In this document: in pieces, positions 97-54,357 of the stretch
Layout of the letters: each line of letters begins with the position of its first letter
How positions within the stretch are numbered: the stretch's first letter is position 1
Origin: Spirochaetales bacterium
GTDB lineage: Bacteria; Spirochaetota; Spirochaetia; Treponematales; Treponemataceae
Assembly: GCA_003252395.1 (NCBI GenBank)
Contig: QKEL01000003.1
Coordinates: 62,001-126,000 of the forward strand
DNA: 64,000 nucleotides
Direction of reading: 5' to 3'
Made by a program: the position numbers and the translations under genes
Notes under the pieces: model-generated
The model's input: the letters and a program-made list of their open reading frames with translations, nothing else
Told to the model about the DNA's origin: nothing
Database searches by the model: none

Positions 97-1629
97 TTAT
101 TCCTTTTCCGCGGTGATTTCAATGAGGCTCACGCCGAAGGGTTCGACGGTCGCCGATACCCGGGCATTCCCGTCGGGCGCGGGAATCCGTTCGACCCGCA
201 CGTCCATTTCCATCCGCCGCCTCAGGACGGCAAGATCGGCCGGCAATATATGGGCGGGGGAACCCATCTCGGCCCAGGCATCGTACACGCTTCCGTGGTC
301 GCGGTCAAACCGCGTGATCTGCGCGCGCGCGACCCGGCCCGGCGCCGACACGGCCAGGTCGAACCGGATCGCCTTTTTGTCCCGGAAGAGCCCGTATATC
401 TCGGCGCCCTTGGCCGAGGCCAGGAGGCGGCTATCGTTGGCGTCGTCGCGGTAGTGGCAATAATTCCAGGCAAGGACCGCCACCGTCCCGTCCGCGCGGC
501 GGGTTACGATATGGGAGTCGCCCCGGGACAGCACCTCCCCGCCCAAGCGGGAAAGGAACCAGTAGCCGTGGTAGGAGGCCTTCTTCAGCCCCTGCGCGTT
601 GACGAGGCCGAAGCCCCCGTGGAAGGGAAGGTCCCCCAGGCGGCATTCCTCGAAGATATCGCTGACCACCCAAAACGACAGGGAATCCATGAGGCCGCTA
701 ACCTTCAGGTTGTTTTCCACGAGGAAGGCGGCCATGAAGGCGGTATCGTGAACCGGGTCCCGGGGGCTCGGGCTCGAGCTCCACTCGGTATAATGCCGTT
801 CCGCGCGGGGATAGGCCGAATCGCGGAGCAGGCTGTCGCAGCCCCGGCAATCCGTTTCCAGGCGGTCGGGGCCGTCCCAAACCATGTAGCCCTTCCCCTC
901 CGGGTCCACCGGATAAAGGGTAGGATAGGGATGGGCGGAGAAAAAGTCCACGGGCAGCTTTCGGCGCGCGCACTCGTCCAGGAACTCCCTGCCCCAGGGG
1001 GGAACGCCGCTCTTGTCGCCGAAGCCCGCGCTGGCCGGGCCGCCGACGCGAAGCGCCGGGTCAACGGCCTTCACGACGCGCGCCGTCCGCTCGTACAGTT
1101 CCATATAGGCGTCGAAGTCGGCGTCTTTCCAGAAGTCCTTCAGCGTGGGCTCGTTCCATACTTCGAAGTACCACGCGCGAACTTCGGCAATCCCGTAGCG
1201 CTCTATCACGTGGCGCAAAAAACGCTCTATCAGGGCCTCCCACCGCGCCCAATCCTTGGGAGGCGTCACGTTGCCCTTCCACCAGAATATGGTTTGGTCG
1301 GAACTGGCCAGATCGTAGGGCATGAAGCCGAATTCGACGAAGGGCCTGATCCCGAGGGAAAGCCAATGGTCGTATACCAGGTCGACGTACTGCCAATTGT
1401 AGATCGGCTGGCCGTTTTCCTCCCGGTAGACCATCATGTCCTCGTGAAAGAGGCCGTGCATGCGGATGTACGAGAAGGGGAAATCCCGCTGAACCATTTC
1501 AAGGTGCTTTTGGAAATCGGCGCGCAGGGCCTCGCCGACCCTCCCGCCGCCCACGCAGACGCGCCAGTAGGGAACCAGGGGCTCGCCCGGAGAGGCGGAA
1601 CAATCGATAGACACGGGAATAGTAGTCAT
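97..1629 (-). CDS. xynB: GH39 family beta-xylosidase
   Basis: A 510-residue protein without a signal peptide, so probably cytoplasmic. It should release xylose from the non-reducing end of imported xylo-oligosaccharides. The TIM-barrel part has the family pattern: an N-terminal VCVGGGRVGEALR segment, the FSYIRMHGLF strand, and the acid/base motif WNEPTLKDFW near residue 178. A later SSSPSPRDPVHDTA region lies near the expected nucleophile strand. A C-terminal beta-sandwich follows. Length is normal for GH39. The start lies 6 bases downstream of a TACACT -10-like box and has no Shine-Dalgarno site. An AraC regulator is divergent and a second GH39 gene follows. The family call is firm; the exact substrate is inferred. 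Confidence 0.88.
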   Translation of the reverse strand: MTTIPVSIDCSASPGEPLVPYWRVCVGGGRVGEALRADFQKHLEMVQRDFPFSYIRMHGLFHEDMMVYREENGQPIYNWQYVDLVYDHWLSLGIRPFVEFGFMPYDLASSDQTIFWWKGNVTPPKDWARWEALIERFLRHVIERYGIAEVRAWYFEVWNEPTLKDFWKDADFDAYMELYERTARVVKAVDPALRVGGPASAGFGDKSGVPPWGREFLDECARRKLPVDFFSAHPYPTLYPVDPEGKGYMVWDGPDRLETDCRGCDSLLRDSAYPRAERHYTEWSSSPSPRDPVHDTAFMAAFLVENNLKVSGLMDSLSFWVVSDIFEECRLGDLPFHGGFGLVNAQGLKKASYHGYWFLSRLGGEVLSRGDSHIVTRRADGTVAVLAWNYCHYRDDANDSRLLASAKGAEIYGLFRDKKAIRFDLAVSAPGRVARAQITRFDRDHGSVYDAWAEMGSPAHILPADLAVLRRRMEMDVRVERIPAPDGNARVSATVEPFGVSLIEITAEKE

Positions 1630-1635
1630 GTTTTG

Positions 1636-1641
1636 AGTGTA
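1636..1641 (-). promoter_or_regulatory. Candidate -10 box for the GH39 operon
   Basis: On the minus strand TACACT sits 6 nt before the ATG at 1629, and there is no Shine-Dalgarno sequence. No good -35 is visible at 17-18 nt, which would suit activation by the divergent AraC protein. This is one of the leaderless-type starts. Confidence 0.4.
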
Positions 1642-1684
1642 GCATCGGTTTTTTCGCAGGTTCTGGCCGTATTTTGGGAATTAG

Positions 1685-1714
1685 TGGACATTTTTTGCGT
1701 TTCCCGGGCATAAT
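1685..1714 (+). promoter_or_regulatory. Promoter of the AraC regulator gene, leaderless type
   Basis: TGGACA (1685-1690), an 18-nt spacer, and CATAAT (1709-1714) lie 5 nt before the ATG at 1720. There is no Shine-Dalgarno site between promoter and start, so the mRNA should begin at or beside the start codon. Confidence 0.5.
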
Positions 1715-1719
1715 TACCC

Positions 1720-2601
1720 ATGCGCGTCCATGCGTTCGCCGAACACCGAAAATACGCCGATGAAGACTTTCCGGTATCTTGCTGGGAAGGAAGCGATTTG
1801 CGGTACGTCGCCCATTGGCACGGGGAGGTGGAACTGCTCTTCGTGTCCCGGGGGCGCCTCCGCATGAGCATCAATCAACGCCGGGTGGAATTGGGCCCCG
1901 GAGACCTGGCGATAGTCGGCTCAAACGCGATCCATTATTACGAGGGGGCCGACGAGGCCTGCCGGTACCGGATCGTTATCTTTTCCCCCGAGCTGACGGG
2001 CCGCCCCGAGGGCTGGTCCCCGCGCGGCGCGGGGGCGCAAAGCGTCGTTCGCGGCGTTTCCGGCAGGGTGAACCCCCTCTGGGCCGATATTCCCCGCCTC
2101 ATGGGAACCGCCGTCCGGGAAGCCGCGGCCCGAGAAAAGGCGTGGCAGGCCATGGTCCACGCGGCCCTCTGGGAAATCACCGCCCGCCTGGATCGCCTGG
2201 GGCTCCCGGGAGAGGGCCCGCTTCCCGACGACCGGGGGGAATCGGCCCTCGACCGGATGCAAAAGGCGATTCGCTACCTCCACCGGAATTTCCTAAAACC
2301 CGTCGGCCTCGCCGAGGCGGCGCGGGCGGCGGCCTTGTGTCCCACGCATTTCTCGCGCCTCTTTTCGCGGTTCACCGGGCAAAACCTCAGCTCCTTCCTG
2401 AACGGGCTGCGGGTCGAGAAGGCGAAGGAACGGCTCGAGGGAACCGAGCGCATCGTGGATATCGCCCTCGCCTGCGGCTTTGAAAGCGTGCGGAGCTTCA
2501 ATCGCGCCTTTAAGGCCCATACCGGGCAAACGCCCCGCGACTACCGGCGAAACGGGGCCGGCGGCGTGGCTCTCGCGGCCGCGGAAGTCAATGCAGAATG
2601 A
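1720..2601 (+). CDS. AraC family regulator with cupin sensor domain
   Basis: A 293-residue DNA-binding regulator. The N-terminal part (about 1-140) has the cupin pattern of AraC sugar sensors: the WHGEVELLFV strand and LGPGDLAIVG. The C-terminal part (about 180-285) carries two helix-turn-helix units, AEAARAAALCPTHFSRLFSR and DIALACGFESVRSFNRAFK, followed by TGQTPRDYR. It is divergent from the GH39 operon and is its likely activator in response to xylose or xylo-oligosaccharide. That role is inferred from position. Its 3' end overlaps the convergent LysE gene by 14 bp. Confidence 0.88.
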   Translation: MRVHAFAEHRKYADEDFPVSCWEGSDLRYVAHWHGEVELLFVSRGRLRMSINQRRVELGPGDLAIVGSNAIHYYEGADEACRYRIVIFSPELTGRPEGWSPRGAGAQSVVRGVSGRVNPLWADIPRLMGTAVREAAAREKAWQAMVHAALWEITARLDRLGLPGEGPLPDDRGESALDRMQKAIRYLHRNFLKPVGLAEAARAAALCPTHFSRLFSRFTGQNLSSFLNGLRVEKAKERLEGTERIVDIALACGFESVRSFNRAFKAHTGQTPRDYRRNGAGGVALAAAEVNAE

Positions 2602-3184
2602 ACGCCGCCGAGCCCGCCGTAAGGAGTCCCAGGCCGTACCGTATTCTCTTCTGAGACCGGGGATTCTTCATCCAGCCGTTCAGCATAGAGCCGAATAGGG
2701 CCCACAAAGAAATCGATGCGAAGGCGATCACCGCGAAGGAAAGCGCGATGAAGGCCACCGACGGCAGGTAGCCGTCGCCGGCGAGGGGATACACCGTCAT
2801 GGCCGTTATGGTAATAACGTAGGCCTTGGGATTGAGGTACTGAAACCCGGCGCCCTCGAGCACGGAAAAGGGCCGGTCGGCGGTCGCGCGCTCCGTGCCC
2901 GGCCCCGCGGTAAAGGCGATCTTCCAGGCCAAATACAGGATATATGCCGTTCCGGCGATCTTTAATACGCCGTGTACCGCGGGAAAACGCTCGAATAACA
3001 AGCCCAGCCCCAAGGCGCTTAAGAGGAGCTGGCTGAGCATTCCCAAAACGACGCCCACGATGTGGGGCAGCGTGGCGCGGTAACCGAAACGCGCGCCCGA
3101 GGCGGTGAGCAGCATGTTGTTCGGGCCCGGCGTAATGGCCATGGTCAGCACGAATAGGGTTACCGGCAAGATAATCGATTCCAT
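2588..3184 (-). CDS. LysE/RhtB family amino-acid exporter
   Basis: A 198-residue inner-membrane protein with about six hydrophobic segments. The family signature ITPGPNNMLL lies near residue 16-25, and a YLAWKIA segment follows. These proteins export amino acids or related metabolites. I placed the start at 3184, not at the upstream in-frame ATG at 3256, because AGGAGG lies 5 bases upstream and the hydrophobic N-terminus begins there. The gene is divergent from a MocR regulator, a common arrangement in which MocR controls the exporter. Substrate unknown. Confidence 0.87.
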   Translation of the reverse strand: MESIILPVTLFVLTMAITPGPNNMLLTASGARFGYRATLPHIVGVVLGMLSQLLLSALGLGLLFERFPAVHGVLKIAGTAYILYLAWKIAFTAGPGTERATADRPFSVLEGAGFQYLNPKAYVITITAMTVYPLAGDGYLPSVAFIALSFAVIAFASISLWALFGSMLNGWMKNPRSQKRIRYGLGLLTAGSAAFILH

Positions 3185-3227
3185 AAAGCCTCCTGATGCG
3201 TGATGCCCCATACTGTCCCGTTTAGCG

Positions 3228-3263
3228 CAATCGTAACAGATACACGCAATTGACAATCGATAC
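3228..3263. promoter_or_regulatory. Direct repeat, candidate MocR operator
   Basis: CAATCGTAAC (3228-3237) and CAATCGATAC (3254-3263) are direct repeats 26 bp apart in the divergent spacer. The second overlaps the -35 and spacer of the mocR promoter. MocR dimers such as GabR are known to bind direct repeats. Binding by this protein is inferred. Confidence 0.4.
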
Positions 3264-3278
3264 GGTACAGTTTACCCT
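3250..3278 (+). promoter_or_regulatory. Consensus promoter of the MocR gene, leaderless type
   Basis: TTGACA (3250-3255), exactly 17 nt, then TACCCT (3273-3278), then six bases and the ATG at 3285. No ribosome binding site fits between the expected start of transcription and the start codon. Confidence 0.6.
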
Positions 3279-3284
3279 TCTGTT

Positions 3285-4718
3285 ATGGAAACGCAGGGGT
3301 TCAAATACGAGGCGATCGTAGAAAGCTACGCCAAGGCGCTGGAGAACGGGACCATTCCCGCCGGCTCGAAACTGCCATCCCTCCGGGCCACCCGCGCCCG
3401 CTTCGGCTGTTCACTTTCGGTGGCCCTGCAGGCCTTCGAGATCCTGGAAGCCCAGGGGAAAATTTACGGCATCGAAAAGACCGGCTACTTCGCCGAGGCG
3501 CCGCGGCGCGCTCCCCTGCCCTCCCCGGAGGCCCAGTACTTTTCCCTTCGGTCCCTGGAGGCGAAACCCTTCAGCGTATTGAGCCGCATCGTCGCGGCGA
3601 GCAATGACCCGTCGGTCGTCCCCCTGGGGGCAGGGCTTCCCGACTCGTCCTATATACCCCTTTCGGCCTTGCGCGCCGAGTACAACCGCCTGCTCCGCGA
3701 ACGGCCGGAAATTCTCAACGAATACGAGGAAGCCCTCGGCGACGGGGAACTGCGCTTCGAGATCAGGCGCGTCATGGAGGCCCGCGGGGTAACCGTCGAC
3801 GAGGGGGAGATCCTGCCGACCAACGGCTGCACGGAAGCCCTCGCCCTGGCGATCGAAACCTGCTCCGCCCCGGGAGACGTGATCGCCATAGAAAGCCCGG
3901 TGTTTTTGGGGATTATCCAGCTGCTCAAGCTCATGAGGCGGCGGATCGTCGCCGTTCCGACCTCACCCGTAACGGGCATGGATTTGGACCGCCTGGAAGA
4001 GGCCGTGGCGGGAGAGGGGGTGAAAGCGGTTATCATGACCGCCCTCTACCAAAATCCCTTGGGGTTCGTCATGAGCGAGGAAAACCGCGAGCGTGCGGTT
4101 GCCCTCGCGCGACGGTACGACATAACGCTGATAGAGGACGACATTTATCACGATTGCGGGTTTGAGGGTCCCGCGGAACGGTGCCTCAAGGCCTTCGACA
4201 CGGACGGGAGGGTCCTGTACTGCTCCTCGTTCTCGAAAACCCTCTCCCCGGGCATGAGGATCGGCTGGCTGGCGGGCGGGAAGCGCCACCGCGAGGCGGC
4301 GGAACTGAAAATGGCCCGGACCATGGGAAACGCGCGGCTCAACCAGCGGGTTATGGCCCGGTACCTCGCCACGGGCCGCCACGAGGCCCAGATTCTCCGG
4401 CTGCGCGCCGCCATGGGCAGGCAGGAAAAGGAAATGCGCGCCCTGCTCGCCGCCGAAATGCCCGAAGGCACGGCGATCTCGCGGCCGAGGGGCGGATACT
4501 ACCTGTGGGTGGAACTGCCCGAGGGGAACGATACCCTGGAACTCTTCGAACGGGCCCTTCGGGCCGGAATCGGCATCGTGCCGGGCCAAGCCTTCTCCGC
4601 GGAACGGCGGTACGGCAACTGCATGCGCATCAGCTTCGCGAGCCCCATCACCGACCGCGTCCGGTCGGGGGTCGCCAACCTCGCCCGCCTGCTGGAACGG
4701 CCCGGCGAGGTCCGGTAG
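3285..4718 (+). CDS. MocR family regulator (GntR helix-turn-helix plus aminotransferase domain)
   Basis: A 477-residue fusion. Residues about 1-75 form a GntR winged helix (AGSKLPSLRATRARFGCS). Residues about 95-470 form a fold-type I aminotransferase with PLP-site motifs PTNGCTEALALA, IEDDIYHDC and the Schiff-base lysine in SSFSKTLSPGMRIGW, and a late RISFASP arginine. Length matches the family. MocR proteins sense PLP adducts with amino acids or amines. It probably controls the divergent LysE exporter; this is inferred from position and from the direct repeats between them. Confidence 0.9.
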   Translation: METQGFKYEAIVESYAKALENGTIPAGSKLPSLRATRARFGCSLSVALQAFEILEAQGKIYGIEKTGYFAEAPRRAPLPSPEAQYFSLRSLEAKPFSVLSRIVAASNDPSVVPLGAGLPDSSYIPLSALRAEYNRLLRERPEILNEYEEALGDGELRFEIRRVMEARGVTVDEGEILPTNGCTEALALAIETCSAPGDVIAIESPVFLGIIQLLKLMRRRIVAVPTSPVTGMDLDRLEEAVAGEGVKAVIMTALYQNPLGFVMSEENRERAVALARRYDITLIEDDIYHDCGFEGPAERCLKAFDTDGRVLYCSSFSKTLSPGMRIGWLAGGKRHREAAELKMARTMGNARLNQRVMARYLATGRHEAQILRLRAAMGRQEKEMRALLAAEMPEGTAISRPRGGYYLWVELPEGNDTLELFERALRAGIGIVPGQAFSAERRYGNCMRISFASPITDRVRSGVANLARLLERPGEVR

Positions 4719-4744
4719 CGGGCCGGGTCAGGCAGCGGGCGAAG

Positions 4745-5224
4745 TCAAGCCAAGGGCGACTGGCCGGCCAAAGCGGCCGTCTTTTCCAGGGTGTACCCCG
4801 TCTTCTCGGCGATTGAGGCAAGGCTCATGCCGCCCGCCAGCATTCGCCGCACGCAATGGGCCATGTCCTCGCCGATTTCCAGAAAATGCCCGTCGGGGTC
4901 CCGGGCGCGAAACGCCAATTGTCCCCAGGGCTGTTCCCTGGTGGCGTGTATCAGCTCGGTGCCGGGAAAGGCGAGGAGGCGGGCCTCTACCGCCGAAACG
5001 TCCTCGTACTCGAAGTACAGGACCGCGGACTCGCCCTTCACCCGCTCGCAGGGAAGGTCGCTCAGTTCCCGGAAAAGCTCCCGCCGGTACAGGGCAAGGC
5101 CGCCGAGAAAGCCCACGTTGTATATCCCGTGGTCCGACTCGACCGCGAGGCCGAAAACGGTCTCGTAAAAGCGACGCGACGCGAGCACGTCGTCCACGAC
5201 GAGGATTGCCGACTTATAACCCAT
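4745..5224 (-). CDS. VOC (glyoxalase-like) protein with C-terminal helix-turn-helix-like tail
   Basis: A 159-residue protein. Residues about 1-115 form one glyoxalase/bleomycin-resistance unit (ILVVDDVLASRRFYETVFG, then FRARDPDGHFLEIGED). The last 40 residues, with GMSLASIAEKTGYTLEKTAA, look like a small helix-turn-helix and are not part of the VOC fold. I chose the ATG at 5224 because the VOC strand starts there. It overlaps the upstream nuclease gene by 11 bp, which suggests translational coupling. Function and substrate unknown. Confidence 0.75.
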   Translation of the reverse strand: MGYKSAILVVDDVLASRRFYETVFGLAVESDHGIYNVGFLGGLALYRRELFRELSDLPCERVKGESAVLYFEYEDVSAVEARLLAFPGTELIHATREQPWGQLAFRARDPDGHFLEIGEDMAHCVRRMLAGGMSLASIAEKTGYTLEKTAALAGQSPLA

Positions 5225-6089
5225 GAAAATCGCCCCTTCCGCCCAGTATTTCGTCCAGTTCACGCCGGAGCGCCTCCTTGCGGGACGTTCCCAGCCTCAG
5301 TTCCTCCGCGGCGCGGAGGTTTCGTTCCAGCAGGGAACAGGTCACGAGCCCGAGGGCGACCAGGCCTTCCCTTTCCCGCTGGTTCAGGGTTTGCAAAACG
5401 GTCACGGGATACAAACGGTCCCGGTCTATGATTTCACGCAGGCCCTCCCCCGCCGGGTAATCCCAGGAAAGGAGCTCTATGCCGTAATGGGCCGAAAAGC
5501 GCATTGAATCGTCGGAAAACCGCGTATTGGTCACCACCCAGCCCACGAACCGCAGGTCGGCGAATTCGGGCCGGTTCCGCCTGACCGCCACGATATCGTC
5601 CACCCGGCTCCGCACGTACATGGGAACCTGAATGCTCACGTGGCCGTCGCGGGACTGGCTGTACTTGCATTCCACCAGGTGTTGGCGGCCCGAACCGGTC
5701 GCGATCACGTCCATCTCGTGGGTAACGGCCGCGCCGTCCACGGTTACGGCCACCTCGGTCGCGTAGCCCTTGGCCCGAAAAATCTCGCCGGTAAACGCCT
5801 CGAAGGGGTGCCCCGTGGGGCCCAGTTCCATCAGCGCGTTTTTAACCCGGTACCGGGCGCCGGCGATCTTCTTCCGCCTGCCCAGCCGCGAGAGGGCCCG
5901 GGCGTATATTTTCCTCGTGCTCACCCCTTCGGTGAGCCACCCCGCGATATCCGCGAGAATCTCCGCCGCCATGGCCTCGTCGGCCCCCGCGGCCCGCAGC
6001 GATTGCTCCAGTTTCCCGCTATCGAAGGCCTCCAGCTCTCCCGAAGCCTTCCGAACGTGCACGGTCCTGCCGCTTCCAAAGTCTTGCAT
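5214..6089 (-). CDS. ATP-cone plus Mrr-like PD-(D/E)xK nuclease fusion
   Basis: A 291-residue protein. Residues about 8-95 match an ATP-cone, the nucleotide-binding module of NrdR and ribonucleotide reductases (VRKASGELEAFDSGKLEQSL, with VSTRKIYARAL later). Residues about 100-215 are Mrr-like: FEAFTGEIFRAKGY, then the active-site pattern HEMDVIA and HLVECKYSQ (D, then E-x-K). The C-terminus is helical. No methyltransferase is nearby, so it is probably not a classical restriction enzyme. The start at 6089 lies 7 bases after a TATACT box; the ATG at 6131 is upstream of that box. Role unknown, perhaps nucleotide-gated DNA cleavage. Confidence 0.75.
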   Translation of the reverse strand: MQDFGSGRTVHVRKASGELEAFDSGKLEQSLRAAGADEAMAAEILADIAGWLTEGVSTRKIYARALSRLGRRKKIAGARYRVKNALMELGPTGHPFEAFTGEIFRAKGYATEVAVTVDGAAVTHEMDVIATGSGRQHLVECKYSQSRDGHVSIQVPMYVRSRVDDIVAVRRNRPEFADLRFVGWVVTNTRFSDDSMRFSAHYGIELLSWDYPAGEGLREIIDRDRLYPVTVLQTLNQREREGLVALGLVTCSLLERNLRAAEELRLGTSRKEALRRELDEILGGRGDFHGL

Positions 6090-6096
6090 GGGTTTT

Positions 6097-6121
6097 AGTA
6101 TACACGATAATTCGCTATACT
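6097..6121. promoter_or_regulatory. Back-to-back -10 boxes for two divergent genes
   Basis: On the minus strand TATACT (6102-6097) lies 7 nt before the ATG at 6089. On the plus strand TATACT (6116-6121) lies 8 nt before the ATG at 6130. Neither start has a Shine-Dalgarno site and neither box has a strong -35. The two promoters share this short A/T-rich segment. Confidence 0.45.
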
Positions 6122-6129
6122 CGTCCATC

Positions 6130-6927: not shown

Positions 6928-7078
6928 GGCAGAAGGCGCCACGGGGGCAGCCGCCGACGCCCGAAGGCGACGGCTTGTCGTCGCGCGGAGCCCCCGCGTT
7001 CGATCGCCCCTGCAGGGTCGCCCTCCCGCGCGGCCGCGCGCGGAGAACAACCGCCCCGCTTCCCGCCCGCTGCCTCGA
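6923..7078 (-). repeat. GC-rich intergenic repeat, copy A (with inverted ends)
   Basis: Fills the gap between two convergent genes. Read on the minus strand it opens with ATCGAGGCAG and closes with CTGCCTCAAT, a near-perfect terminal inverted repeat. Inside are the shared segments GGGGGCTCCGCG, GCCTTCGGGCGTCGGCGG and CCCCCGTGGCGCCTTCTGCC. Copy B shares the last two almost exactly. It resembles a MITE or REP-type element. No coding frame seen. Confidence 0.7.
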
Positions 7079-7082
7079 TTAT

Positions 7083-11453: not shown

Positions 11454-11483
11454 ATTTTTCACGGCTTATCAGGCCCCTGTCAA
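11454..11483 (-). promoter_or_regulatory. Promoter of the chemotaxis receptor, leaderless type
   Basis: On the minus strand: TTGACA (11483-11478), 18-nt spacer, AAAAAT (11459-11454), then six bases to the ATG at 11447. There is no Shine-Dalgarno site. It places the alternative GTG start (11462) upstream of transcription. Confidence 0.5.
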
Positions 11484-12753: not shown

Positions 12754-12791
12754 GGCGAACGCAGTATATACCGGAAACCATGACACCTACC

Positions 12792-14952: not shown

Positions 14953-14981
14953 AGGATACCGCGACGGCGAACGGATGCCAA
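14953..14981 (-). promoter_or_regulatory. Promoter of the phosphoribosyltransferase gene, leaderless type
   Basis: On the minus strand: TTGGCA (14981-14976), 17-nt spacer, TATCCT (14958-14953), seven bases, then the ATG at 14945. No Shine-Dalgarno site. The promoter is read first into the phosphoribosyltransferase and then into the prenyltransferase gene. Confidence 0.55.
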
Positions 14982-20423: not shown

Positions 20424-21398
20424 TCATATACTGCCAAAACGTTCGCGATAATCGGTCGGTGAAATGCCGAGGTTTCGGTCGAAAAGACGACGGAGATTAA
20501 GGGCGGTCGATAGGCCGCAGGCGGAGGCTACTTCTTCCAGGGTTTCCCTCCCCTGCTCCAGGCGCTGCCGGGCGGCTTCCAGTCGGAGGTCCTCCACGAA
20601 GCGGGCGGGGGTCGTTCCGGTTTCATGGGCGAAAACCCGGCAAAAGTTCCTGAGGCTCATTGCGGCCCGGTCGGCCAGGCGCTCGACGCTCAAGTCCTCG
20701 TCGAGGTTCTCCAGCGCCCAGCTTTGCACCTTGCCGATCGGGGTTTCGGGGTCCGCCTGGCTCGCGAGGAAACGGCTGAACTGGGCTTGCCCCCCGGGGC
20801 GGCGGAGATAGAGAACCAACTCCCGGGCGACTTCCCGGGCCACGGCGGAGCCCAGGTCCTCGGCGACGAGGGCCAGGGTCAGGTCGAAGCCGGAACTCGC
20901 CCCGGCGGAGGTCCAAACCGGGCCGTCGCGCACGTATATCGAATCGCGGTCCACGGAGGTAGTCGGCGAGAGGCGTTCCAGGGTATCGAAAAACCGCCAG
21001 TGGGTGGTGGCCCGCCGGTTTTCGAGAAGGCCGGCCTGGGCGAGAAGTAGGGCGCCGCCGCAAACCGACACGGTCCGTCGCGCCTTGCCGGAGGCATTGC
21101 GCAGCCAGGGAACGGCCACGGCCTCCTGTTCGGCCGCAACGGCCCGGTTCGTGACCACGATGGTATCCCACGCCCGATCGGGATCGATTTCGGAAAGGCT
21201 ATAATCGGCGAGAAGATGCAGTCCCGAACGGCCAAGCACCGTCCGGTGGGCCTGGGGCGTCGCCGTCGTAACGCGATACGGCAGGTTGTCCGGCGAAAAA
21301 CGCCGGTTCGCCTGATCGAGAATGTCAACGACCCCGGTGGGCTCGAACAGCATGCCGCCGTCGGGTACGATAAGCAGGAATTCGCGGGTATGTGCCAT
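20424..21398 (-). CDS. GlxA family regulator (DJ-1/PfpI plus AraC helix-turn-helix)
   Basis: A 324-residue transcription factor. Residues about 5-180 form a class I glutamine amidotransferase-like DJ-1/PfpI domain (FLLIVPDGGMLFEPTGVVDI). The nucleophile-elbow segment VSVCGGALLLAQAG retains a cysteine. Residues about 215-320 form the AraC DNA-binding part (AMSLRNFCRVFAHETGTTPA, then STALNLRRLFDRNLGISPTD). Start chosen at 21398 because AATACT ends 7 bases upstream; the ATG at 21416 would be upstream of transcription. Target unknown; it might control the adjacent flavodoxin/barrel pair or gap. Confidence 0.87.
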   Translation of the reverse strand: MAHTREFLLIVPDGGMLFEPTGVVDILDQANRRFSPDNLPYRVTTATPQAHRTVLGRSGLHLLADYSLSEIDPDRAWDTIVVTNRAVAAEQEAVAVPWLRNASGKARRTVSVCGGALLLAQAGLLENRRATTHWRFFDTLERLSPTTSVDRDSIYVRDGPVWTSAGASSGFDLTLALVAEDLGSAVAREVARELVLYLRRPGGQAQFSRFLASQADPETPIGKVQSWALENLDEDLSVERLADRAAMSLRNFCRVFAHETGTTPARFVEDLRLEAARQRLEQGRETLEEVASACGLSTALNLRRLFDRNLGISPTDYRERFGSI

Positions 21399-21404: not shown

Positions 21405-21410
21405 AGTATT
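21405..21410 (-). promoter_or_regulatory. -10 box of the GlxA-type gene, leaderless type
   Basis: AATACT on the minus strand lies six bases before the ATG at 21398. ATGGCA, four of six matches to the -35 consensus, lies 18 nt further up. No Shine-Dalgarno site. Confidence 0.4.
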
Positions 21411-21461
21411 GCGCATTTAAGCATTTCTTGCCATATCTACTCCGACAAAAAACCAATAAAA

Positions 21462-37185: not shown

Positions 37186-37215
37186 ATTATAACCGTCGAT
37201 AGGGATAAAACTCAA
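37186..37215 (-). promoter_or_regulatory. Consensus promoter of the HD-GYP gene, leaderless type
   Basis: On the minus strand: TTGAGT (37215-37210), 18-nt spacer, a perfect TATAAT (37191-37186), seven bases, then the ATG at 37178. The -35 overlaps the stop region of the upstream EAL gene. Confidence 0.6.
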
Positions 37216-46806: not shown

Positions 46807-46850
46807 TTGCACACTATGTGTAATCTAAGCACGCAAAGAGTCTTGGTCAA
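46807..46850 (-). promoter_or_regulatory. RND operon promoter with TetR-type operator
   Basis: On the minus strand: TTGACC (46850-46845), 17-nt spacer, TAGATT (46827-46822). The inverted repeat TTACACA-TAG-TGTGCAA (46823-46807) overlaps the end of the -10 and the transcription start. A second imperfect palindrome centred on GTATAC lies near 46780-46795. Position is ideal for repression by the divergent TetR protein; binding is inferred. Confidence 0.65.
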
Positions 46851-46916
46851 GAGAATTTTAGGTCGTCATGAGCGCTTTTTATTCGGTTTTTTTCCGGAGG
46901 TTCGTTCGGCCCTCGC

Positions 46917-47552
46917 TTAGGCCTTCACGTAGAGGTTGAAGATCTCAAAAGTCTTGGAAAGAAAATCCTCGGAGGTTCTATGAGTGGCGAGCCGCACGAC
47001 GTCGGTTTCTAAAACGGCGTTCTGGACGGCCCCGTGAACGAGGCTCACCAAGGCCGCCGCGGTCCGCTCGGGGTCATTCATCGGCCGAACGGTCCCGTCA
47101 GCGGCTCCCTCCGTGATGAAGTTCGCCACGATAGAAACGATTTGGTCGATATGCTTAAAACAGTCGCGGGCAAGCTCGTTGTCCACCCCCAGGGAGCGGA
47201 TGCTGTCGGAGAAATTGACGATGAACTGGAAGCCCCCCGGATCGGTTTGGTACATGCGGCGGTACATATCGAAGGTAAGTTCCATGCGCTCGATGCCCGT
47301 CTTGCCCCGACTATGGATATCCTCGATCTGTTCCAGAAGGCGGGAAAGCGTATCCGCCGCCGCCGCGAGGGAAACTTCTTCCTTGCTCCGAAAGTAATGG
47401 TATATCGTACGACGGCTTAGGTCCGAGTTATCGGCGATGTCGTTCATCGTCGTTCCGGAGAATCCCTTGGAAAGAAAAATCGCCTTCGCGGCGGTGATTA
47501 TCTCGCCGATACGCCGTTGACGATCCCTGTGCCGCCGTTGTTCTATGCCCAT
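46917..47552 (-). CDS. TetR family repressor
   Basis: A 211-residue regulator. The N-terminal helix-turn-helix is GFSGTTMNDIADNSDLSRRTIYHYFRSK (positions about 30-57, here cited by range); the ligand-binding helical domain follows. Start chosen at 47552 because TATCAT ends 8 bases upstream; the longer frame to 47774 reads through the FemAB gene. It is divergent from FemAB, and its C-terminus faces the RND operon. The operator in the RND promoter makes it the likely repressor of lipid export. Ligand unknown. Confidence 0.9.
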   Translation of the reverse strand: MGIEQRRHRDRQRRIGEIITAAKAIFLSKGFSGTTMNDIADNSDLSRRTIYHYFRSKEEVSLAAAADTLSRLLEQIEDIHSRGKTGIERMELTFDMYRRMYQTDPGGFQFIVNFSDSIRSLGVDNELARDCFKHIDQIVSIVANFITEGAADGTVRPMNDPERTAAALVSLVHGAVQNAVLETDVVRLATHRTSEDFLSKTFEIFNLYVKA

Positions 47553-47560
47553 AAATGCCC

Positions 47561-47589
47561 ATGATACGGGTGATGGGGCGATTTTGCAA
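47561..47589 (-). promoter_or_regulatory. Consensus promoter of the TetR gene, leaderless type
   Basis: On the minus strand: TTGCAA (47589-47584), 17-nt spacer, TATCAT (47566-47561), eight bases, then the ATG at 47552. No Shine-Dalgarno site. Confidence 0.55.
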
Positions 47590-47616
47590 GCATAATGCCC
47601 GAAGCTTCGCCTTGGG

Positions 47617-47645
47617 TTGTGCCTGTCGCGGATACCCGGTATGCT
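47617..47645 (+). promoter_or_regulatory. Promoter of the FemAB gene, leaderless type
   Basis: TTGTGC (47617-47622), 17-nt spacer, TATGCT (47640-47645), six bases, then the ATG at 47652. No Shine-Dalgarno site. It sits back to back with the TetR promoter. Confidence 0.5.
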
Positions 47646-47651
47646 TGGGGC

Positions 47652-48716: not shown

Positions 48717-48726
48717 AAGGACGCGT

Positions 48727-48781
48727 CCTACCGACCTACCTACCGACCTACCTACCGACCTACCTACCGACCGGTAGGTAG
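48727..48781. repeat. 12-bp tandem repeat ending in a palindrome
   Basis: CCTACCGACCTA is repeated 3.8 times (48727-48772). The last copy forms a 10-bp stem with GGTAGGTAG (to 48781). A related inverted copy, CCTACCGGTCGGTA, lies near 48855-48868. This lies between convergent genes and could be a bidirectional terminator, a protein-binding array or a slippage-prone locus. The rest of this 163-bp gap holds nothing clear. Confidence 0.7.
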
Positions 48782-48879
48782 ATGAACCACAAAAATATGC
48801 AGGCAGATTGCGAGATTCGCAGCCAGTGATCGATCTACCTTTCCGACTGACCTACCTACCGGTCGGTAACCCGGGGAAG

Positions 48880-49866
48880 TCAGCGGCGAAGCAGCTCGTC
48901 AACGCACATCGAATACTCCTCAAGCCCCCGAACCCTGGCCAACCGAGCCATATACCGCTTACCGTCGGGCAACCAATAGGAAAGATACGTCCAAATCTCC
49001 TTCATTTTATCCAGCACATGGGCCGGACCGAAGAGCACCGAACGGTAGCGGTTGAATACATCGTCATGAAAGGGCGCGATTCCCGCCAACCAGGCCACGC
49101 TCCCCGGTTTTGGGAAGTCGACGCGCGATAGAGCGCCGTCAAGTCCCCTGTCCAGATACGCGCGGATTCGAGACGGGAGATAGGGGTCGTATAAGGCGCC
49201 GCGGCCGAGCATCCACCCGGACGCGTTCGGGAAGGCGGTTTGCGTCGCGCGGAAGGACGGAAGGTCGAAGACGTCCCCGTTGCCAATCACCGGATGGGCG
49301 CACGAGGCGGCTGCCTCGGCGTATTCGGCGAGATGGACGGAACCGCGGTACATTTGCGTTCCCACGCGACCGTGGATGGTCACCGAGGCGAGCGGATACC
49401 GGTTCAAGACCGGCATAAAAGACCGCCACTCCTCAACGTCCGCGCGTCCAAGGCGAATCTTGACCGAGACTGCCGGCACGTCCCCAGCGCGGAAGACGGT
49501 ATCCAAAAAGCGGTCTATCCGGTCAGGATGGGGAAGGAGTCCCGAGCCGCGGTATTTCTTGGCGACCATGGGATACGGGCACCCAAGATTCCAGTTGACC
49601 TCGCCGTATCCGGCATCGCGCAGTACCCGGGCGGAATCCGCGAAACTGGCGCCCTCGTTGCCCAAAATTTGCGGAACCAAGGGAATCGGGAGCTCGGGCT
49701 GGGGGATGACGTCCTTGAAATGGGTTTTCCGGACAGAAGACCCGGGGACGGCGAGGATAAACGGAGCCATGGCCGAGTCGAAACCGCCGAAATGAGCGAA
49801 CCACGCGGCCCGAAAGTGCCGGTTTGTTACCCCGTGAAGGGGCGCGAGCTGTACTGTGAAGGGCAT
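48880..49866 (-). CDS. dus: tRNA-dihydrouridine synthase
   Basis: A 328-residue FMN enzyme that reduces uridines in tRNA. The TIM-barrel start is LAPLHGVTNRHFR. The active-site loop NLGCPYPMVAKKYRGSGLL carries the catalytic cysteine. FMN-binding strands VKIRLG, TIHGRVG, VIGNGDVF and MLGRGALYDP follow. Length fits. It lies 11 bp after the YwlG-type gene on the same strand and likely shares its promoter. No Shine-Dalgarno site is visible. Which tRNA position it modifies cannot be read from the sequence. Confidence 0.9.
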   Translation of the reverse strand: MPFTVQLAPLHGVTNRHFRAAWFAHFGGFDSAMAPFILAVPGSSVRKTHFKDVIPQPELPIPLVPQILGNEGASFADSARVLRDAGYGEVNWNLGCPYPMVAKKYRGSGLLPHPDRIDRFLDTVFRAGDVPAVSVKIRLGRADVEEWRSFMPVLNRYPLASVTIHGRVGTQMYRGSVHLAEYAEAAASCAHPVIGNGDVFDLPSFRATQTAFPNASGWMLGRGALYDPYLPSRIRAYLDRGLDGALSRVDFPKPGSVAWLAGIAPFHDDVFNRYRSVLFGPAHVLDKMKEIWTYLSYWLPDGKRYMARLARVRGLEEYSMCVDELLRR

Positions 49867-49877
49867 GAAGGCTACGC

Positions 49878-50429
49878 TTACCCGAGATCCGGGTCGTACA
49901 CCGCCCGCTCGCCGCCGACGTACGGAGGCCTCGTGCGGGCGAGCACTAAGGGCGCCTCCCCGATCCGCGACACCGAGACCCGAACCGGTACCGCGACCCG
50001 GTCCAAGTGCATTCCGATTAGCGTGTTTCCGATATCCACGCCGAGGGAAGCCTTGACCGATTCCACCAAGACGGGGTGGTCCATACCTTCATACGCCGCC
50101 GTCGCGAAAGACCCTCCGGCGGTGGGCTGCGGCACCGCGTTCACCCGGCGGAGCCCATACGGGCGAACGGCCTCCCGTTCCACCACGAGGGACCGATTCA
50201 GGTGCTCGCAGGTTTGGGCCGCGAGAAACAGGGCATGGTCGCGGCAAAATTCCGAAAGGGTCTCGAAAATCACCAGGGCGATTTCCGGGCTCCCCCCGGT
50301 CCCGATGCGCCGGCCGGCGACTTCGCTGGTACTGCATCCGGCGACGAATAGTGACCCTTCCTCGACCCGTGCCGCCTTCCATAAGTCCGCTAGAGCGGCC
50401 CTCAAGTCGTTCCGAATCGCCTCGATCAT
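49878..50429 (-). CDS. ywlG: YwlG/DUF436 (UPF0340) family protein
   Basis: A 183-residue protein of the TIGR01440 family. Conserved segments: VAGCSTSEVAGRRIGTGGS, QTCEHLNRSLVVERE, AVPQPTAGGSFATAAY and VDIGNTLIGMHLDRVAVPVR. The CSTSEV and TCEHLNR cysteines are the invariant ones of the family. Biochemical function is unknown. AGGAGG lies 7 bases before the ATG. First gene of a pair with dus. Confidence 0.88.
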   Translation of the reverse strand: MIEAIRNDLRAALADLWKAARVEEGSLFVAGCSTSEVAGRRIGTGGSPEIALVIFETLSEFCRDHALFLAAQTCEHLNRSLVVEREAVRPYGLRRVNAVPQPTAGGSFATAAYEGMDHPVLVESVKASLGVDIGNTLIGMHLDRVAVPVRVSVSRIGEAPLVLARTRPPYVGGERAVYDPDLG

Positions 50430-50509
50430 GCGTTATCCTCCTGAGCGCGGGTTGTCCGGTCAAAACAAAACTACCCCCACGATTCGCGTTCGTCAAGGCG
50501 GCGTACCCG

Positions 50510-50539
50510 TCGACGCGATGCCGGGGCGGCGGGTATACT
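50510..50539 (+). promoter_or_regulatory. Promoter of the acidic hypothetical gene, leaderless type
   Basis: TCGACG (50510-50515), 18-nt spacer, TATACT (50534-50539), six bases, then the ATG at 50546. No Shine-Dalgarno site. Confidence 0.5.
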
Positions 50540-50545
50540 CAAGCC

Positions 50546-51526
50546 ATGCTATATCTCAACCCCACGAAACGGCGCCTCGGAGTCGAAACGGTGGGCGCCG
50601 AAGAGGAAATCATGGACCTCTACGACGCCCTTTTGGAATTGATCGAATGTGCGGACGGTATCGATGACGAGGGGGTAGTCAATCTCACGGATACCAATGC
50701 CCACTTATTCGACTTTCTCGATTTGCTTCGGCATCCGGAACCGATTCCCGAAGAATACCTTGCCCCCGCAGAAACGCCCTCCAAGAGGGGCAAACCCTCC
50801 GCGACGCCCGAAAGCGAAACAGATGAGCCGGGAAGGCCAAAGGTCTTGGCCTTCCCGGGCGTAACCCTGGACGAAGTCGGAAAGGAAGCTGATGAGGAAG
50901 AAACGGACGTTGACGACGACGTTGACGACCTTGACATAGACGGCTTTATCAAAAACGCCGATTTACCCGATGACATCATCGCGGCGCTGGAGGAATTCCG
51001 CGCGACCGGCAAGCTCAGCGACGCCCTTGACGGCGACGACGAAAGCCTTTTTGTGGACGACGACCTGATGGTTCGCATGATCTGGCCCGAAGCGGTGCAT
51101 TTGGCCTTTACCCTCAACGAATACCTCGGTTGGAGCGCTTCCGCGCGCGACGCGGCCTGGGCCCGGGAGATCCGCTGGAGGCCGGCTTACGGAACGGTGC
51201 TTCGGTATCAGGCCCAGCTGATCGACTGCATTTGCGACGCCCTCCCGGAGAAACAAGCCGACCAGGCACGGGAATTGCTCGAAAGCCCGAAGGTATCGGT
51301 TAAGGACATCTGCTTTCAGTATATAGACTTGCTCAACGAGGAATTCGTCCTTGCCACCGCAAAGCGGAGAAAGGCCATGCTCGGTCCCGTCATCGCCGAA
51401 ATAGCGAAGAGCGGTCCCCGGAACGAGAAAATCCGCAAGGAAGCCGAGGCGAAAGCCCGGGAATTGGACTGCCCGGTCGAGGAAATTTCCTTTACCGGGG
51501 AAATGCCGGCCGACCTGGAATGGTAA
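50546..51526 (+). CDS. Acidic hypothetical protein
   Basis: A 326-residue protein that I do not recognise. Residues about 10-70 are helical, about 75-130 are a low-complexity spacer (PAETPSKRGKPSA, then EEETDVDDDVDDLDID), and about 175-320 are a helical domain with many conserved-looking tryptophans (WPEAVHLAFTLNEYLGWSA, AWAREIRWRP). No signal peptide or membrane helix. Start set at 50546, six bases after TATACT; the longer frame is upstream. Its stop overlaps the next start by 7 bp, so it is co-transcribed with a methyltransferase. Possible scaffold or adaptor. Confidence 0.75.
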   Translation: MLYLNPTKRRLGVETVGAEEEIMDLYDALLELIECADGIDDEGVVNLTDTNAHLFDFLDLLRHPEPIPEEYLAPAETPSKRGKPSATPESETDEPGRPKVLAFPGVTLDEVGKEADEEETDVDDDVDDLDIDGFIKNADLPDDIIAALEEFRATGKLSDALDGDDESLFVDDDLMVRMIWPEAVHLAFTLNEYLGWSASARDAAWAREIRWRPAYGTVLRYQAQLIDCICDALPEKQADQARELLESPKVSVKDICFQYIDLLNEEFVLATAKRRKAMLGPVIAEIAKSGPRNEKIRKEAEAKARELDCPVEEISFTGEMPADLEW

Positions 51527-52326
51527 GGAGGGAGGGCCCGGCGAGGGATTCCACGAAACGCTTTTCGGACCGGGTTGAGAACTACGTTCGGTACCGGCCC
51601 TCCTACCCCGACTCGCTCTTTCGGTTTCTCGCCGATTCGGGGCTGATCGCGCCGAACGGCGGGCAATTCTCCGCCGCCGACGTGGGCGCGGGAACGGGAA
51701 TCTTCACCGCCCTCCTCGCGCGCCGGCTCGCCCCCCTCGGCGGCGCGGTTTTCGCCGTCGAACCCAACGACGATATGCGCGACGCGGGCATTCGCCACTG
51801 CGAAGCGCTGCCGAACGTCGCCTTCCTTCCCGGAACCGCGGAGAATACCGGACTCCCGCCCTCTTCGCAGGATCTCGTTACCGTCGCCCAAGCCTTCCAT
51901 TGGTTCAATCCCGAGCGCTCGGTCGCCGAGTTTTCAAGGATTCTGAGGCCACGGGGAAAGCTTGCCCTCGTTTGGAACAATCGGCTCAGCGACACCCCGT
52001 TCCAGGCGGAATACGACCGCCTCGTTTCGACGTACGCCCCGGAATACCATGAGGTAACGCACCGCAACGTGGAACCGGAGAGCCTCAAACCCCTGTTCGC
52101 CGGGGATTGGGCATGCGGGGAATTCGAATATGAACAGCGCTTTGATCTTTCGGGCGCGCAAGGCCGCGCGCTATCGTCTTCCTACTGCCCGAAGGAAGGG
52201 GAAAAAGGCCACAAAGAAATTATGGAGGGCATTGAGGCAGCCTTAGGCCGATTCGGCGAAGGCGGCCTCGTTTCCTTTCATTACCGCACGATACTGCACT
52301 ACGGCACCCCGAAGCGCGGTTTTTAA
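51520..52326 (+). CDS. Class I SAM-dependent methyltransferase
   Basis: A 268-residue methyltransferase. The first motif is FSAADVGAGTGIFTALLAR (SAM-binding), followed by VFAVEPNDDMRDA and the motif DLVTVAQAFHWFNPERSVAEF. The N-terminal RFSDRVENYVRYRPSYP is the characteristic start of the UbiE/COQ5-like or 'YRPxYP' group. Substrate not determinable. The ATG overlaps the preceding gene's stop by 7 bp, which couples it to the acidic protein. Confidence 0.85.
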   Translation: MVRREGPARDSTKRFSDRVENYVRYRPSYPDSLFRFLADSGLIAPNGGQFSAADVGAGTGIFTALLARRLAPLGGAVFAVEPNDDMRDAGIRHCEALPNVAFLPGTAENTGLPPSSQDLVTVAQAFHWFNPERSVAEFSRILRPRGKLALVWNNRLSDTPFQAEYDRLVSTYAPEYHEVTHRNVEPESLKPLFAGDWACGEFEYEQRFDLSGAQGRALSSSYCPKEGEKGHKEIMEGIEAALGRFGEGGLVSFHYRTILHYGTPKRGF

Positions 52327-52388
52327 AGCCCCCTAAACCGTGGAAAACCGCGAACCGATACGCAATACTCTGTATCGGGGGTAGTGTT

Positions 52389-53453
52389 ATGACGGATTCT
52401 CAAATCGATACCTTCGGGCTCCATATCCTTTGCATCGACGACAGCAAGACCCAACTTGTCCTGTACCGATCCCAGCTGGAAGGGCTGTACCGGGTTACCG
52501 CGGCCGTCTCATACCAGGAAGCCATCGCCTGCCTGTCGGCGACAAAGCCGGATTTGATTCTCCTGGACATGGAGATGCCCCAGGTAAACGGCTTGGAATT
52601 CCTGGACATTCTTCGCTATACCCCGAATTACGCCGGCATTCCGGTCATTATCGTTTCGGGCGACGACAAGAGCGAGGACATAAAGGCCGCCTTCGTGCGC
52701 GGCGCCGCCGATTACGTGCGAAAGCCCTACGACGAAGAAGAACTGCGCCTCAGGATAGCCCGGCTTTTCCGTCTCGTTCTGGGACCCAAAAAGGGAGAAG
52801 AGGAGGATTCGGGATCGCTGTCGGGGGCCCAGGAACTCCTCGTAAAGTCGCTGGCCGATCTCGCCTCCGCCCGGGACAACGAGGGAACCCGGCACCTCGA
52901 ACGGATCGGGCCGTATGCCGCGGTAATCGCGCGAAACGCCGCGAAGCTCGCCAAGTACCGCATTTCCATCAACGGCGATTTCGTGGATAAAATCGGACAA
53001 ATGGCGAAGCTGCACGATATCGGCAAGGTGAACGTGCCGGATTACGTCCTCCACAGCCCGGAAGCCCTGCGCGACAAGGAATTCGAGCTGATCAAAAAGC
53101 ACGTAACCGACGGGGCGAGAACCGTCGACATGATCCGCCTATCCTTCCCGGATTACGGCTTTCTCGATTTCGCGCACGATATCATACTCTACCATCACGA
53201 AAACTGGGACGGGCAAGGCTATCCCGAGGGACTATCCGGCAACGCGATACCGGTTTCCGCGCGGATTACCGCCCTCGCGGACCTCTTCGACGCGGTAACG
53301 ACGAAACGGGCCTTTCGTGAGGCGCGGACCTTCGAGGAAGGGGTTGCCGTGGCGGAAAGCGAGAGCGGCAAGCGGCTCGATCCCGATTTGGTGGAAGTGT
53401 TCCGCTTGAGCCTGAACGAGATACGCGAGGTCTACGATCGATACGCGGACTAA
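52389..53453 (+). CDS. Response regulator with HD-GYP output domain
   Basis: A 354-residue cytoplasmic protein. The receiver (about 10-130) has the acidic pair in CIDDSKTQ, phosphoacceptor LDMEMPQ and lysine RKPYDEEEL. The HD-GYP domain (about 150-350) is intact: LHDIGKVNVP, YHHENWDGQGYPEGLSG and RITALADLFDAV. Phosphorylation should switch cyclic-di-GMP breakdown. No histidine kinase lies next to it. Initiation: GGGGGTAG about 7 bases upstream. Downstream gene is convergent and almost touches it. Confidence 0.9.
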   Translation: MTDSQIDTFGLHILCIDDSKTQLVLYRSQLEGLYRVTAAVSYQEAIACLSATKPDLILLDMEMPQVNGLEFLDILRYTPNYAGIPVIIVSGDDKSEDIKAAFVRGAADYVRKPYDEEELRLRIARLFRLVLGPKKGEEEDSGSLSGAQELLVKSLADLASARDNEGTRHLERIGPYAAVIARNAAKLAKYRISINGDFVDKIGQMAKLHDIGKVNVPDYVLHSPEALRDKEFELIKKHVTDGARTVDMIRLSFPDYGFLDFAHDIILYHHENWDGQGYPEGLSGNAIPVSARITALADLFDAVTTKRAFREARTFEEGVAVAESESGKRLDPDLVEVFRLSLNEIREVYDRYAD

Positions 53454-53459
53454 GGCCGG

Positions 53460-54344
53460 TCAGGCTTTCGCGCGGTGTATGAGAAGCACCGCAGCCACGC
53501 TCACCGCGCCGCCGGCTACGCTGGTCCACGCGGGAATTTCGCCTAAAAGGACGAAGGCGATCGCCAGGGCCGAGACCGGCACCAAAAAGGCGAAACTGGA
53601 GGCACGGGCGGCCCCGATTCTCCTCGTCGCCTCGAAATAAAGGGTGGTGCCGAAGGTTCCCGCCGCGAGGCCGAGGTACGCGGCGTCCAGCCAAAAGCCG
53701 GGACCGAGACGCGCGAAATCGAAGGGGCCCTTCGTCCAGGCAAAGGGCAGGAGCATGAGCGCGCACAGGACGGAAGTCCAAAAGCCGTACCGCAATACCC
53801 CCACCCCCTTTTGCGCCTTCGCGCTGGCGTGGGTTAACAGGGCATAGGTGGCGGCCGCCGCCACGAGAATCACGTTTTCAGGCCGGGTAAAGGCCGCGGG
53901 GGAAAACTCCGGGCCGATTATTTGCAGTACGCCGCCGGCCAAACCGAAGGCCAGCCCGACAAGCGTAAGTCCGATAATTCTGTGTCGAGCGAACAGGGCC
54001 GCGAAAAGAAAGCTGAAAAGCGGGTTCAGGGTCGGCACGAGCACGCCGCCGTAACCGCCGCTCCCATGCTTCATGGCGGTAAGAAACAGCATGTTATAGA
54101 GCGCGAGGGCCGCCGCGGACAGGAAGGTCCAAAGCCGCGCCCCTTTCGGAAGGGAAAGGGGTTCCCGCAAAACCAGCAAGACGGGCAGGAACGATACCGC
54201 GTTGATCGCGAAACGCCAAAACGCCGTGAGCTCCGCGGGATACCCCGCGGCCCATTTCGCCACCGTCCAGGAACCGCCCCAGCTGATCATCGCGAGCGCC
54301 ATAAGCGCGTAAAAGAGCGGTTTACGCCCGTGTTGTCCGTCCAT
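53460..54344 (-). CDS. EamA/DMT family transporter
   Basis: A 294-residue inner-membrane permease with about ten hydrophobic helices in two EamA units (ALMALAMISWGGSWTVAKWA at the first helix, GAARASSFAFLVPVSALAIA at helix eight). These export small metabolites or amino acids. I start it at 54344, seven bases after TATGAT; the ATG at 54356 lies above that box. Its stop lies 6 bp from the convergent HD-GYP stop. Substrate unknown. Confidence 0.86.
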   Translation of the reverse strand: MDGQHGRKPLFYALMALAMISWGGSWTVAKWAAGYPAELTAFWRFAINAVSFLPVLLVLREPLSLPKGARLWTFLSAAALALYNMLFLTAMKHGSGGYGGVLVPTLNPLFSFLFAALFARHRIIGLTLVGLAFGLAGGVLQIIGPEFSPAAFTRPENVILVAAAATYALLTHASAKAQKGVGVLRYGFWTSVLCALMLLPFAWTKGPFDFARLGPGFWLDAAYLGLAAGTFGTTLYFEATRRIGAARASSFAFLVPVSALAIAFVLLGEIPAWTSVAGGAVSVAAVLLIHRAKA

Positions 54345-54351
54345 GGGGCGC

Positions 54352-54357
54352 ATCATA
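54352..54357 (-). promoter_or_regulatory. -10 box of the EamA gene, leaderless type
   Basis: TATGAT on the minus strand lies seven bases before the ATG at 54344. No convincing -35 at 17-18 nt. No Shine-Dalgarno site. Confidence 0.4.

Follow-up and report, generated by a model that had tools for sequence, protein, structure and literature searches.

Predicted leaderless genes at transcription-unit starts in a relative of Treponema

Introduction

Leaderless genes have been predicted in 6 of 18 Spirochaetes genomes, at an average of 3.9% and a maximum of 6.9% (Zheng et al. 2011, PMC3160421, Table 2), and in differential RNA sequencing (dRNA-seq) of Leptospira interrogans 430-450 genes had a primary transcription start site (TSS) no more than 10 nt from the start (Zhukova et al. 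2017, PMC5243855). Evidence against a phylum-wide feature comes from Nakagawa 2017 (PMC5397173), in which the mean of the six Spirochaetes is negative along the axis interpreted as a leaderless/S1 signal. Bidirectional promoters with symmetric -10 elements are known from Escherichia coli (Warman et al., NAR 2026, PMC12825309). Here we analyze a window, by which we mean the whole 64,000-nt stretch of DNA from a Spirochaetales genome, in which thirteen ATG starts had been proposed (henceforth the original prediction) to be leaderless: each is closely preceded by a TANNNT-like -10 box and has no fitting Shine-Dalgarno (SD) site. Leaderless genes had also been thought undescribed in spirochaetes, a view that the genome survey and the Leptospira data overturn.

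The window covers positions 62001-126000 of contig 4; the source genome comprises 3.41 Mb in 15 contigs. Among 80 loci, the RpoD sequences nearest to that of the source genome are those of the metagenome-assembled genome SZUA-416 (97%), of SZUA-377 (90%) and of Brucepastera parasyntrophica (88%), and many Treponema RpoDs are more distant than these three. The source organism is a Treponema relative. Eleven further genomes of the same genus were available for comparison.

Results

A -10-like motif defines a second class of gene starts

Genes were called with a gene finder that relies on coding score and start codon only and is blind to upstream motifs. Upstream regions were analyzed by two-motif expectation maximization (EM), in which an SD motif, a TA motif and a background model were fitted together to 613 genus genes from outside the window; an earlier one-motif version had drifted onto the SD motif and was of no use. 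The SD motif settled on AGGAG, and the TA motif on TATAAT/TATACT at 6-9 nt before the start. The TA-fraction counts leave out starts that had less than 50 or 60 nt of upstream sequence, no called neighbor or an N among the 60 nt upstream. For the 264 genes of the source genome outside the window, the fitted fractions were 0.15 TA-led (confidence interval, CI, 0.11-0.21) and 0.66 SD-led, bearing out the proposed coexistence of the two classes; at the 54 divergent starts among them the TA fraction rose to 0.52 (0.40-0.66). On four shuffled sets the same fit yielded 0.00-0.01; it yielded 0.00 both for 3803 internal ATGs and for 73 E. coli genes treated alike.

Counting a strict box, defined as TANNNT ending 5-8 nt before the start, against dinucleotide shuffles gave a concordant picture. 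In the genus sample outside the window, 46 of 140 divergent starts carried the box (11.6 +/- 3.3 in shuffles, maximum 22), an excess of the kind that the original prediction had called for. Within the window the counts were 6/14 for divergent starts (shuffle mean 1.1, maximum 5; 300 shuffles) and 8/52 for all starts (mean 3.0, maximum 8).

Judged by a second hexamer, the boxes resemble sigma-70 promoters. A TTGACA-like -35 element (at least 4/6 matches) lies 17 nt upstream of the box in 30 and 18 nt upstream in 10 of the 94 TA-called genus starts, window genes included; any other spacing from 10 to 27 nt accounts for 1-6 of the 94. This spacing test is independent of how the box was found. In Mycobacteria GTG is also used at leaderless starts, whereas all 94 TA starts here are ATG, compared with 354/391 SD starts (p=0.0004; the gene finder's penalty on GTG and TTG is the same for the two sets).

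The TA class is restricted to the starts of transcription units. Operon-internal genes of the genus have a TA fraction of 0.03 (n=248), and co-directional genes reach 0.22 at gaps of 30-100 nt (n=97) and 0.09 at gaps of at least 100 nt (n=110). For divergent genes the fraction falls with distance, from 0.69 at gaps of up to 100 nt (n=58) through 0.42 at 100-150 nt (n=32) to 0.24 above 150 nt (n=68). Strict boxes follow the same order (36/58, 11/28 and 13/62 for gaps of 0-100, 100-150 and above 150 nt; smaller genus sample, window included). Because a leader needs room, this trend may be mere geometry and need not reflect a regulatory device.

Members of the class include DNA polymerase III alpha and MurB, so that it is not limited to accessory genes. 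Regulators account for 4 of the 13 starts in the window (1720, 3285, 21398 and 47552), but their suggested excess was not reproduced outside it: among divergent genes of the source genome there, 1/23 TA-led and 0/17 SD-led genes are regulators. Pooled Pfam counts for the genus revealed no helix-turn-helix (HTH) family with two or more members among 64 TA-led divergent proteins (best 25 of 139 families) and two AsnC-type proteins among 68 SD-led ones (best 25 of 150 families). For these counts the TetR gene, whose start the gene finder had placed wrongly, was manually reassigned from the SD-led to the TA-led proteins.

The thirteen starts of the window

All thirteen proposed ATGs and boxes were found at their positions, eight of them on the minus strand. 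The SD posterior is at most 0.24 at every one of them, in agreement with the proposed absence of such a site, and 0.99-1.00 at the six genes put forward as SD-led counterparts (3184, 18793, 20339, 22801, 43172 and 50429). Eleven boxes have TA posteriors of 0.78-0.99; those at 1720 and 11447 are weak, with a good -35 element in each case. The box at 21398 also deviates from strict TANNNT. A -35 element with at least 4/6 matches at a spacing of 16-18 nt was counted at eight of the 13 starts, compared with nine in the original prediction. The elements are as follows.

1636..1641, minus strand: -10 TACACT, 6 nt before ATG 1629 (GH39); posterior 0.99
1709..1714, plus strand: weak -10 CATAAT, 5 nt before ATG 1720 (AraC family); posterior 0.29
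1685-1690, plus strand: -35 TGGACA for ATG 1720; spacer 18; 5/6 matches
3273..3278, plus strand: -10 TACCCT, 6 nt before ATG 3285 (MocR-like); posterior 0.95
3250-3255, plus strand: -35 TTGACA for ATG 3285; spacer 17
6097..6102, minus strand: -10 TATACT, 7 nt before ATG 6089 (Mrr-like); posterior 0.99
6116..6121, plus strand: -10 TATACT, 8 nt before ATG 6130 (amidohydrolase); posterior 0.99
11454..11459, minus strand: weak -10 AAAAAT, 6 nt before ATG 11447 (chemotaxis receptor); posterior 0.41
11478-11483, minus strand: -35 TTGACA for ATG 11447; spacer 18; 6/6 matches
12763..12768, minus strand: -10 TATACT, 9 nt before ATG 12753 (AlkZ-like); posterior 0.99; absent from the original prediction
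14953..14958, minus strand: -10 TATCCT, 7 nt before ATG 14945 (phosphoribosyltransferase); posterior 0.96
14976-14981, minus strand: -35 TTGGCA for ATG 14945; spacer 17
21405..21410, minus strand: -10 AATACT, 6 nt before ATG 21398 (DJ-1/PfpI plus AraC HTH); posterior 0.86
21429-21434, minus strand: -35 ATGGCA for ATG 21398; spacer 18
37186..37191, minus strand: -10 TATAAT, 7 nt before ATG 37178 (GAF-HD); posterior 0.99
37210-37215, minus strand: -35 TTGAGT for ATG 37178; spacer 18
47561..47566, minus strand: -10 TATCAT, 8 nt before ATG 47552 (TetR); posterior 0.92
47584-47589, minus strand: -35 TTGCAA for ATG 47552; spacer 17
47640..47645, plus strand: -10 TATGCT, 6 nt before ATG 47652 (FemAB-like); posterior 0.91
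50534..50539, plus strand: -10 TATACT, 6 nt before ATG 50546 (DUF6904); posterior 0.99
Plus strand: -35 TCGACG for ATG 50546; spacer 18
54352..54357, minus strand: -10 TATGAT, 7 nt before ATG 54344 (EamA); posterior 0.78

The motif-blind gene finder chose 11 of the 13 starts independently. At 47552 and 54344 it came to a near-tie with downstream ATGs (39.8 versus 40.3 and 57.0 versus 57.2, respectively); a TetR_N match begins at residue 18 of the 47552 product, so that the ATG 35 codons downstream would truncate the domain. Two further window starts were scored TA, the operon-internal 14395 (0.64) and 43965, which has AGGAG (0.73); both are probably false positives. A second GH39 gene adjoins that at 97-1629; it lies mostly outside the window (contig 4, 60903-62060) and is 44% identical over residues 18-403.

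Conservation and turnover of the boxes

Conservation in relatives, which the original prediction had named as a check, holds for the nearest sister genome and in part beyond it. In that sister genome (G003; 64-82% protein identity), a box is located 6-9 nt before 6/6 orthologous starts, with posteriors of 0.83-0.99. The region from -50 to -18 upstream shares 9-45% identity without gaps, and gapped alignment is no better than shuffled in 5/6 cases; for DUF6904, the gapped score was reached by 12/200 shuffles. Over nine genomes, 12 of 23 orthologous starts are TA (posterior at least 0.77): the six in G003, the Mrr-like gene in G005, G008 and G009, the amidohydrolase in G001, the GAF-HD gene (37178) in G008 and the GlxA-like gene (21398) in G006. 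By gene, the box is present in 4/5 orthologues of the Mrr-like gene (6089), in 2/3 of the amidohydrolase (6130; posteriors 0.99 and 0.77) and in the G003 orthologue of DUF6904 (50546); the phosphoribosyltransferase (14945) has a box in G003 and an SD site in G002, and the EamA orthologues score 0.90 in G003 and 0.54 in G002. The codons directly after the ATG are conserved, as in MIIDVHAH/MIIDVHGH of the amidohydrolase. G003 offers the only close genus match to 3285 (at a contig edge, the alignment beginning at residue 167), 1629 has one 40% relative besides a paralogue, and no match to the TetR gene was found in the 20 stretches searched. The leaderless mode is thus retained in the nearest sister and changes over within the genus.

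Leaderless transcription and its alternatives

We consider it very probable from these sequence features that the listed starts belong to leaderless genes. The original claim is backed, as a prediction, by the position of the box, the -35 element at 17 nt, the lack of SD sites, the exclusive use of ATG, the restriction to unit starts and the conservation in G003. In the mechanism that we envisage, the housekeeping sigma factor would bind the TATAAT/TATACT -10 element, often with a TTGACA-like -35 element 17 nt upstream. Since a sigma-70-like box just before the start is expected to direct transcription to, or beside, the A of the ATG, RNA polymerase would start on that base or within a few nt of it. 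The resulting mRNA would begin 5'-AUG and enter translation without an SD site, as leaderless mRNAs do, by way of 70S ribosomes or IF2/initiator tRNA; we infer both the TSS at the ATG and the translation of this mRNA. The leaderless class would thus serve the starts of transcription units, mainly at short divergent gaps, and operon-internal genes would use SD sites.

Several results weigh against this reading. Two of the 13 boxes (1720 and 11447) are weak, and single sites such as these may still be chance occurrences. The positive control was small and weak: for 50 kb of plasmid MP1 of Deinococcus radiodurans, the TA fraction was 0.06 of 35 genes (CI 0-0.19), with 0.27, and strict boxes at 3/8 versus 0.3, at its 8 divergent starts. 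Co-directional starts at gaps of at least 100 nt show no excess of strict boxes (3/95, control 8.9). In 3 of the 12 TA orthologues, namely GAF-HD of G008 and Mrr of G005 and G009, the ATG that follows the box is displaced by 1 or 5 codons relative to the aligned start. Outside G003 many orthologues lack the box: 10 of the 23 orthologous starts are not TA (FemAB in seven genomes, phosphoribosyltransferase in G002, Mrr in G004 and amidohydrolase in G008), and 8 of these 10 have an SD posterior of at least 0.78. The FemAB-like gene (47652; orthologues L274-L281) has the box in its own genome and in G003 and in none of the 7 others, which mostly carry an SD-like site; its sequences mark it as a case of initiation-mode switching. 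Finally, for 5 of the 13 starts an SD-like start in the same frame lies no more than 40 codons away.

This last count favors an alternative in which the promoters are real but translation begins at a downstream SD-led start, or the main mRNA carries a leader from other upstream promoters and the leaderless one is minor. However, 43 of 190 SD-led genes have such a downstream start as well, protein identity between orthologues reaches the ATG, and the downstream ATG of the TetR gene would cut its domain; gaps of 24-40 nt, in turn, leave scant room for a further promoter plus leader. We regard this alternative as unlikely. Less probable by far is that the boxes are chance matches, or A+T-rich unstructured stretches that aid ribosome (S1) binding and not promoters. 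Pre-start regions are indeed A+T-richer than coding DNA, but the boxes exceed dinucleotide shuffles, are confined to the first genes of units and do not occur in E. coli treated alike, and the second hexamer at 17 nt refutes this explanation for the class.

Distribution over Spirochaetia

TA starts were called in the genus and in other samples of the class. Over all genes, the TA fraction is 0.18 in G008 (n=181) and 0.22 in other genus members (n=168); it is 0.16 in G014 (n=131), 0.24 in G124 (n=43), 0.20 in G034 (n=117), 0.12 in G027/G030 (n=118) and 0.26 in G140 (0.18-0.35; n=114), which belongs to another family of the class. Low values were obtained for G057 (0.06, n=59), G037 (0.04, n=121), G045 (0.07, n=49), G062 (0.05, n=52) and G042 (0.05, n=45), and values of 0.00 for G134 plus G146 (n=111), G043 (n=34), G147 (n=22) and G079 (n=71). 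At 75 rpoD loci, mostly from Treponema, boxes were not in excess over all genes (61/686, control 78.8), most of which lie in one operon-rich region; the divergent starts gave 16/66 versus 10.7. The feature is therefore patchy across Spirochaetia and not private to the genus; its absence elsewhere is less certain than its presence because the model was trained on the genus.

As a separate observation, the 71 genes of G079 (L209-L210, L231-L234) have an SD motif in 3% and a TA motif in 0% of cases, and the genes of G043 and G147 are mostly without either motif.

Divergent pairs and shared -10 elements

Both starts of a divergent pair are TA-called in 7 of 19 genus pairs at gaps of up to 60 nt, in 4/32 at 61-150 nt and in 2/35 above. 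In the window, 40 nt separate the ATGs at 6089 and 6130 and 13 nt separate their -10 boxes; the two promoters therefore overlap, although the boxes themselves do not. Overlapping -10 elements on opposite strands were found elsewhere. At L013:17507-17530, in the source genome, a 24-nt gap separates an MFS/HEAT protein from an M3 peptidase, and the opposing boxes share 2 nt. L147:14429-15808 (G004) and L149:9377-10799 (G011) hold an orthologous divergent pair, a metallophosphoesterase (37.6% identical) and a 194-residue protein (54.9%) that has no Pfam match. The ATGs are separated by 27 and 28 nt, and AGTATACT, a palindrome that gives TATACT on either strand, occupies the center of the gap at 9-11 nt from each ATG, which would allow for a leader of a few nt. 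In the orthologous pair of G037 (L221:16362-17830), AGTATACT lies in a 56-nt gap, 14 and 34 nt from the ATGs and hence outside the leaderless position. From its placement, the gap of this pair is a candidate bidirectional promoter, nearly leaderless in G004 and G011. Overall, the palindrome is not in excess in the genus sample (11 versus 9.5 expected); 9 of the 11 occurrences fall outside called genes.

Tentatively, and with somewhat more doubt than confidence, we propose that leaderless initiation is a main mode in several Spirochaetia lineages, the best samples reaching 15-26% of all genes and roughly half of the divergent starts. In the most compact arrangement, a gap of 24-28 nt would hold one overlapping or palindromic -10 element (AGTATACT) shared by two divergent genes that are leaderless or nearly leaderless, the 8-10 bp element and the two ATGs making up all start signals of the pair.

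Discussion

Taken together, these data describe a new lineage with high use of an already known kind of leaderless gene, and strongly predict from sequence that leaderless initiation is also abundant in a treponeme-related lineage and in samples of other Spirochaetia. The open-access literature searched contained no report of leaderless genes in this lineage. The result is relevant to annotation, because start finders that seek SD sites can misplace such starts, and it provides a testable rule, namely that leaderless starts accompany short divergent gaps. A natural series for the study of a change in initiation mode is offered by orthologues that have the box in some genomes and an SD site in others, such as those of the FemAB-like gene.

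The closest known systems share much with the genes described here. TA-led bacterial genes, as defined in PMC3160421, likewise have TANNNT some 12 bp ahead of the start, lack an SD site and were tested against shuffled sequence; every sequence feature of that class that we tested (box, lack of SD, unit starts, -35 spacing) was found. As in Actinobacteria and Deinococcus-Thermus (Zheng et al. 2011, PMC3160421), TANNNT lies near the start and SD and leaderless classes coexist. The predicted levels, 15% (11-21%) in the source genome, 20% in G034 and 26% in G140, exceed the 6.9% maximum tabulated there for spirochaetes, a comparison that is not strict because the methods differ. The promoters of Warman et al. 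(PMC12825309) likewise place opposite overlapping -10 elements between divergent genes, as at L147, L149 and L013; here, in contrast, the predicted TSSs would coincide with the two start codons or fall a few nt from them, and the word leaderless is absent from PMC12825309. Among the papers listed by a limited literature search on symmetric -10 elements combined with leaderless genes, the one that covered all terms concerns an archaeon. In the spirochaete Leptospira interrogans (PMC5243855), likewise, hundreds of genes have a TSS at most 10 nt from the start. The TSSs there were measured, whereas ours are predicted; the abstract of that study reports no motifs beyond sigma-54, whereas the -10 and -35 elements are clear in the present lineage.

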